A stretch of 64,000 nucleotides of DNA from Clostridiales bacterium (lineage in GTDB: Bacteria; Bacillota; Clostridia; Oscillospirales; Oscillospiraceae): NCBI GenBank assembly GCA_029008095.1, contig JAQXJB010000052.1, positions 209,238 to 273,237 on the forward strand, given 5' to 3'. The notes under the pieces are model-generated. The model made no database searches. It was not told the DNA's origin and worked only from the letters and a program-made list of their open reading frames with translations. This document shows, in pieces, positions 33,804 through 34,511 of the stretch (positions are counted from its first letter, which is position 1; each line of letters opens with the position of its first letter). A program made the translations under genes and the position numbers.

Positions 33804-33877
33804 GCGGGTATAGTTCATCGGTAGAACGCGAGCTTCCCAAGCTCGACAGGAGGGTTCGACTCCCTTTACCCGCTCCA
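33804..33877 (+). tRNA. tRNA-Gly (anticodon CCC), CCA encoded
   Basis: Acceptor arms GCGGGTA/TACCCGC, anticodon arm CGAGC-TTCCCAA-GCTCG giving anticodon CCC, T arm with GGTTCGACTCC, discriminator T and encoded CCA. It reads GGG codons. Single tRNA with its own promoter and terminator. Confidence 0.95.
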
Positions 33878-33878
33878 A

Positions 33879-33905
33879 AAAAGCACGCTCCGGCGTGCTT
33901 TTTTT
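33879..33905 (+). terminator. terminator of tRNA-Gly
   Basis: GCACGC-TCCG-GCGTGC flanked by A6 and T7, a textbook intrinsic terminator directly after the CCA end. Confidence 0.92.
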
Positions 33906-33986
33906 CAATACAATAAAAAATATATCCCTCAGAATCAAAAGGAGGTCGCCGCCACGGAATTCATAAACAACATCGACTCGGCTGTA

Positions 33987-34511
33987 ATGCTGTTTTTCCA
34001 GCAGCTAAGGAATCCCGTAACAGACCCAATAATGGCCATTTTCTCCATTTCATGCAATATAGGCTTCATATGGATAGTCCTCGCGCTGGTGCTGCTGGTC
34101 AGAAAGAAAACCCGCCGTCACGGCATACAGCTTGCTCTGTGCCTTATAGCTTCACTCATTGTAAATAATCTTATTCTGAAAAATCTTGTGGCACGTCCCC
34201 GCCCCTTCACAGAGGTGGAGGGACTGACTGTCATGCTCAGCCGTTTTGCCGACGCGGGTTCCTGGTCATTTCCTTCCGGCCACGCGGGCAGCAGCTTTGC
34301 CGCCGCCTATTCTCTGAGCAAAAGCTTCGGCAAGAAAGGATATCCGGCATGGATAGCCGCCGCGCTGATAGCCATTTCCCGCTGCTATATCGGCGTGCAT
34401 TATCCTTCGGACGTTATCTGCGGCGCGCTTTTCGGAACGCTTGGTGCTGTCGCCGCAGTGTATCTTTGGTCACGGTGCCTGCCGCTTTTGGAAAGAAAAA
34501 AACTCATATGA
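33987..34511 (+). CDS. PAP2-family membrane phosphatase
   Basis: Likely acts on undecaprenyl diphosphate or phosphatidate. The three PAP2 motifs are present: 'KNLVARPRP' (KX6RP), 'PSGHAGSS' and 'SRCYIGVHYPSDV' (SRX5HX3D). About five hydrophobic helices. The listed ATG has no ribosome-binding site. An in-frame ACG at 33954 sits 8 nt after AAAAGGAGG and would give a protein starting (M)EFINNIDSAVMLFFQQL, the normal beginning for this family; no ATG, GTG or TTG lies between. The true start may therefore be ACG 33954. Confidence 0.93.
   Translation: MLFFQQLRNPVTDPIMAIFSISCNIGFIWIVLALVLLVRKKTRRHGIQLALCLIASLIVNNLILKNLVARPRPFTEVEGLTVMLSRFADAGSWSFPSGHAGSSFAAAYSLSKSFGKKGYPAWIAAALIAISRCYIGVHYPSDVICGALFGTLGAVAAVYLWSRCLPLLERKKLI

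Follow-up and report, generated by a model that had tools for sequence, protein, structure and literature searches.

A PAP2 phosphatase gene with an apparent ACG start codon in a Clostridiales genome

Standard gene callers take only ATG, GTG and TTG as start codons, and a gene that begins otherwise is easily misread. Within the 64,000-nt stretch of DNA from an uncultured Clostridiales bacterium that we analyzed (the window), a gene for a PAP2-superfamily membrane phosphatase poses this problem, since a strong Shine-Dalgarno (SD) sequence leads to ACG and the first canonical codon in frame lies well inside the apparent coding sequence; because of the callers' restriction, the gene would be annotated 11 residues short or judged truncated. 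The questions raised by this locus are where its translation begins and, if at the ACG, whether that codon is genuine and used.

The PAP2 reading frame and its surroundings

The SD sequence AAAAGGAGG occupies positions 33937–33945 of the forward strand and, with the next T, gives AAAGGAGGT, which matches the usual anti-SD complement over 9 nt. A spacer of 8 nt (TCGCCGCC) separates it from ACG at 33954–33956 (+), the inferred translation start, from which the frame reads TEFINNIDSAVMLFFQQL... to a stop codon at 34509–34511, giving a coding sequence of 185 codons including the ACG (33954–34511, +, stop inside these coordinates). The frame is also open for 42 codons upstream of the ACG, back to the preceding stop, and between that stop and the ATG at 33987–33989 (+), which lies 33 nt past the ACG and is the first canonical codon of the whole open frame, we found no in-frame ATG, GTG or TTG. 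No SD match of at least 4 nt was found at a usable distance before this ATG. The sequence-only reading had described the same arrangement, namely an ACG 8 nt past an SD, a first in-frame ATG 33 nt further on without one, and no canonical codon between them or upstream, and each of these points held on re-examination. If the ACG initiates, the predicted N-terminus is (M)EFINNIDSAVMLFF. Two other codons, ATA (codon 4) and ATC (codon 7), were rejected as starts because their distances to the SD, 17 and 26 nt, are too great. RNA folding over the start revealed nothing unusual (z 0.79). The stretch 33940–33962 (AGGAGGTCGCCGCCACGGAATTC) looks like a Kozak context of eukaryotes with an EcoRI site after it; we took this as coincidence, since the surrounding contig spans 273 kb and synteny is kept in the genus.

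The encoded protein matched Pfam PF01569 (E 2.6e-24; 85.9 bits vs. a gathering threshold of 27.2), bearing out its initial identification as a PAP2 phosphatase, and the catalytic motifs KX6RP (KNLVARPRP), PSGH and SRX5HX3D (SRCYIGVHYPSD) were intact in the translation. The nearest solved structures by sequence were LpxE (6ebu) and Bacillus subtilis PgpB/YodM (5jki), which, like the SepP undecaprenyl-diphosphatases, have the sequence family and catalytic motifs in common with this protein. However, its score against the NCBIfam SepP model NF047884 was far under the equivalog cut-off (84.3 vs. 250 bits), and the other NCBIfam equivalog cut-offs were likewise far above its scores, so we left the substrate unassigned. 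The gene stands alone, with a tRNA-Gly (CCC) gene (33804–33877, +; ARAGORN) and an apparent terminator upstream and a terminator-like hairpin downstream. Judging from the sequence, the upstream hairpin, AAAGCACGC TCCG GCGTGCTTTTTTT at 33879–33909 (+), probably terminates the tRNA gene intrinsically; a consensus terminator scan did not report it. A scan of viral contigs found no relative. The gene would be an ordinary, vertically inherited phosphatase of the lipid/undecaprenyl-phosphate type, and we treat it as such in the explanation that we favor below.

Position of the start among homologues

The neighborhood, consisting of an acyltransferase-like gene, tRNA-Gly-CCC and the PAP2 gene, is kept in two genomes of the same genus, G001 and G002. 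In the syntenic G001 orthologue (69% identity), a GTG preceded by AAGAGGTGATACC occupies the very codon that is ACG here, and in the G002 orthologue (70% identity) an ATG preceded by AAAGGAG lies two codons further on. DNA similarity to the two begins at the ACG, with ungapped identity in 30-nt blocks of 53–83% downstream of it and 23–40% upstream.

We extended the comparison to 111 homologues, including the gene studied here, drawn from about 300 family-level genomes (one per species) and GTDB contigs; some of the distant members may be paralogues. A canonical start was present before residue 12 in 110 of the 111, the sole exception being the gene under study. The best-scored starts of the other homologues fell at residue 0 or 1 in 60 of 110, with a further cluster at residues 3 to 7, although the residue numbers of distant homologues come from ungapped extension of tblastn matches and single positions may shift by 1–2. 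Residue 8 was Asp or Glu in 104 of the 111, which places the stretch ahead of M12 within the protein, and residue 12, Met in the protein studied, was Leu in 95.

These results bear directly on the reading in which translation starts at ATG 33987 and yields a protein of 174 aa. Although this ATG is the only canonical codon available and the likely choice of an automatic gene caller, it is without an SD, and no homologue is confined to so late a start. Initiation there would drop the acidic residue 8 and leave idle the strong SD 41 nt upstream. The early canonical starts of the other homologues, the acidic residue 8, and the placing of M12 at a family Leu position identify the ATG as an internal Met codon, and we regard initiation from it as very improbable. 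The sequence-only reading had favored the ACG over this position (MLFFQQ) and named alignment with orthologues as one way to decide; the identical placing of the G001 GTG, and the finding that all the other 110 homologues have a canonical start ahead of residue 12, came down on the side of the ACG position. By these comparisons the start position at 33954, as distinct from the identity of its codon, appears secure: what is odd is the codon, and the position is very probably genuine.

A homologue in a different neighborhood of a third same-genus genome, G003 (L006, G003:C214:4911-5426, positions 1482–1510), has as its sole early canonical codon a TTG abutting AGGAG (spacing 0), while an ATA lies 9 nt from AGGAG; this is possibly another near-cognate start.

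Origin and possible use of the ACG codon

ACG was conserved in none of the 110 other homologues, which start at GTG, ATG or TTG, and there is therefore no sign of selection for it. We also assessed how unusual the combination of SD and ACG is in this genome, using 353 kb of genome stretches for counts together with whole-genome pattern searches. Ten copies of AAAAGGAGG occurred in the 353 kb, seven of them followed by a canonical ORF start at 4–11 nt and two inside genes, leaving the PAP2 site as the only copy otherwise unexplained. Another perfect SD lacking a start, at L062:9327, turned out to be an arm of a terminator-like stem near tyrS. Across the whole genome, AAGGAGG N5–9 ACG was found at 33 sites vs. 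80 for a reversed-pattern control. Thirty of these sites were examined, and only the PAP2 site combined an ORF of at least 100 codons with the absence both of canonical starts upstream in frame and of canonical codons at SD distance in any frame. As the combination is no commoner than the control and fits a gene start once, we rejected general ACG initiation in this genome; one gene has it. Five more weak cases of near-cognate codons coupled to an SD came out of an initial background scan; none of them has an 8-nt SD.

The ACG stands alone among 111 homologues, differs by a single base from the most frequent start codon and comes from a fragmented draft assembly of 55 contigs, all of which would fit if the C at 33955 were an assembly or consensus error, or a minority strain variant in a population that has ATG. 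The sequence-only reading had offered this possibility, an assembly or strain variant of ATG, beside that of a near-cognate start with low expression. Against it, errors in a consensus are infrequent at any given base and start codons make up only a small target, the site itself is ordinary, non-repetitive and inside a 273-kb contig, and infC of genome G012 (see below) offers another ACG start, this one two substitutions from the codons of its congeners. We consider an error or variant unlikely, if the most credible of the alternatives to a genuine, used ACG.

A real ACG might instead mark a recent true start-loss, leaving the gene effectively silent in this strain and bound to decay. This would fit with the lack of ACG conservation, and the gene may be dispensable, given that the same-genus genome G004 (85% complete) has no detectable copy and that a second, distant PAP2 protein is encoded in the genome studied. 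On the other hand, there is no frameshift or premature stop, the catalytic motifs are intact and the SD is kept. Pairwise dN/dS among this gene and its G001 and G002 orthologues was about 0.13–0.15 in all three comparisons and about 0.13–0.14 in the two that involve this gene, values that are rough since dS is high, and dN (0.22, 0.24 and 0.21 in the three pairs) indicated no excess change on the branch of the gene studied. The gene is thus under purifying selection, which together with its intact motifs rules out a pseudogene of long standing; a null allele of very recent origin would still fit these data. Silencing by start-loss is, in our estimation, improbable, and marginally more so than an error or variant.

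The explanation that we favor, with confidence only a little above even, is that the ACG is a lineage-specific change at the true start and is used weakly, driven by the SD and probably limited by IF3. The analysis shows where the start lies, that its canonical codon has been lost, that the SD is retained and that the protein is under purifying selection; that the ACG is present in the living population and supports low-yield, IF3-limited initiation is what we infer. Most simply, the codon would have arisen by a recent single-base change, one T-to-C transition from ATG to ACG, with the strong SD and the reading frame retained. The extended 9-nt SD would then hold the 30S subunit in such a way that the initiator tRNA sits on the ACG, mispaired at the second base of the codon. 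Most such complexes would be rejected by IF3, the gene for which is present in this genome, and a small yield of full-length enzyme with the N-terminus (formyl)Met-Glu-Phe would result. Kinetic work on IF3 in vitro has employed ACG as a non-canonical triplet (PMC8266586), and in an Escherichia coli reporter ACG supported 0.1–1.5% of the expression from ATG (PMC6925171). A yield this low might be functionally nil, which counts against a used ACG.

infC and other non-canonical starts

Among bacterial genes, infC, sigR and ccpN have conserved non-canonical starts. We used infC, which encodes IF3, as a control for near-cognate initiation in this family and found it without a canonical SD-linked start in all 112 genomes surveyed, the SD-linked codon being ATC in 69, ATA in 22, ATT in 20 and ACG in one (G012). 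In the genome of the PAP2 gene, infC has ATC behind AGGAGGTG (L106/L142, G000:C26:51429-51914, minus strand) and no canonical in-frame start nearby. This uniform use of near-cognate codons implies that the ribosomes of the family routinely start at them when given a good SD, and ACG may be among the codons that they initiate. It also suggests that regulatory near-cognate starts are conserved, as in infC, whereas the PAP2 ACG is not. The infC start of G012 reads GGGGGTGTTTTT ACG AGT AAC (L162, G012:C27:15334-15540, minus strand, reverse complement near 1727–1729). Its ACG aligns with ATA, ATT or ATC in 17 congeners and, being two substitutions from each, is unlikely to be one base-calling error; from sequence, G012 infC thus looks the better candidate of the two for a natural ACG start. 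We advance only tentatively the broader proposal that ACG is naturally used in this clostridial family, weakly in PAP2 and under IF3 autoregulation in G012 infC, in both cases driven by the SD and checked by IF3.

The literature searched contained no account of a bacterial gene naturally starting at ACG, which is not proof of absence. Were the PAP2 ACG used, a codon outside the NCBI table 11 start list would join those of natural bacterial genes, and the locus would show cleanly how a single base of the start codon can lower expression. The infC survey, for its part, lends itself directly to testing, by comparison, which near-cognate codons are tolerated in an essential, IF3-controlled gene.

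Three known systems invite comparison. Elsewhere, infC starts at ATT (E. coli), ATC (Streptomyces) or AUA (Staphylococcus aureus) and is autoregulated by IF3 (PMC5472188, PMC13009471). Like the PAP2 gene, it has a strong SD at 8–10 nt followed by a codon other than ATG, GTG or TTG, at which discrimination by IF3 would be expected; its non-canonical start, however, is conserved, whereas the PAP2 ACG is confined to a single genome, and no feedback on it is known. Streptomyces sigR resembles the PAP2 gene in being a non-IF3 gene with a rare start codon, a GTC that is repressed by IF3 and lowers translation (PMC5472188), but this GTC has been demonstrated by experiment and is conserved within Streptomyces, while the PAP2 ACG is known from sequence in a single genome. 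The third system is citZ of S. aureus, a metabolic gene with an extended SD in which loss of the canonical start is likewise restricted to a lineage, its AUA being specific to NCTC 8325 (PMC13009471). By analogy with citZ, conservation of the start codon would not be strictly required for a genuine non-canonical start. The codon there is AUA rather than ACG, and its use was established by ribosome profiling and reporters, with near-cognate starts behind extended SDs in S. aureus giving about 10% of AUG (PMC13009471).
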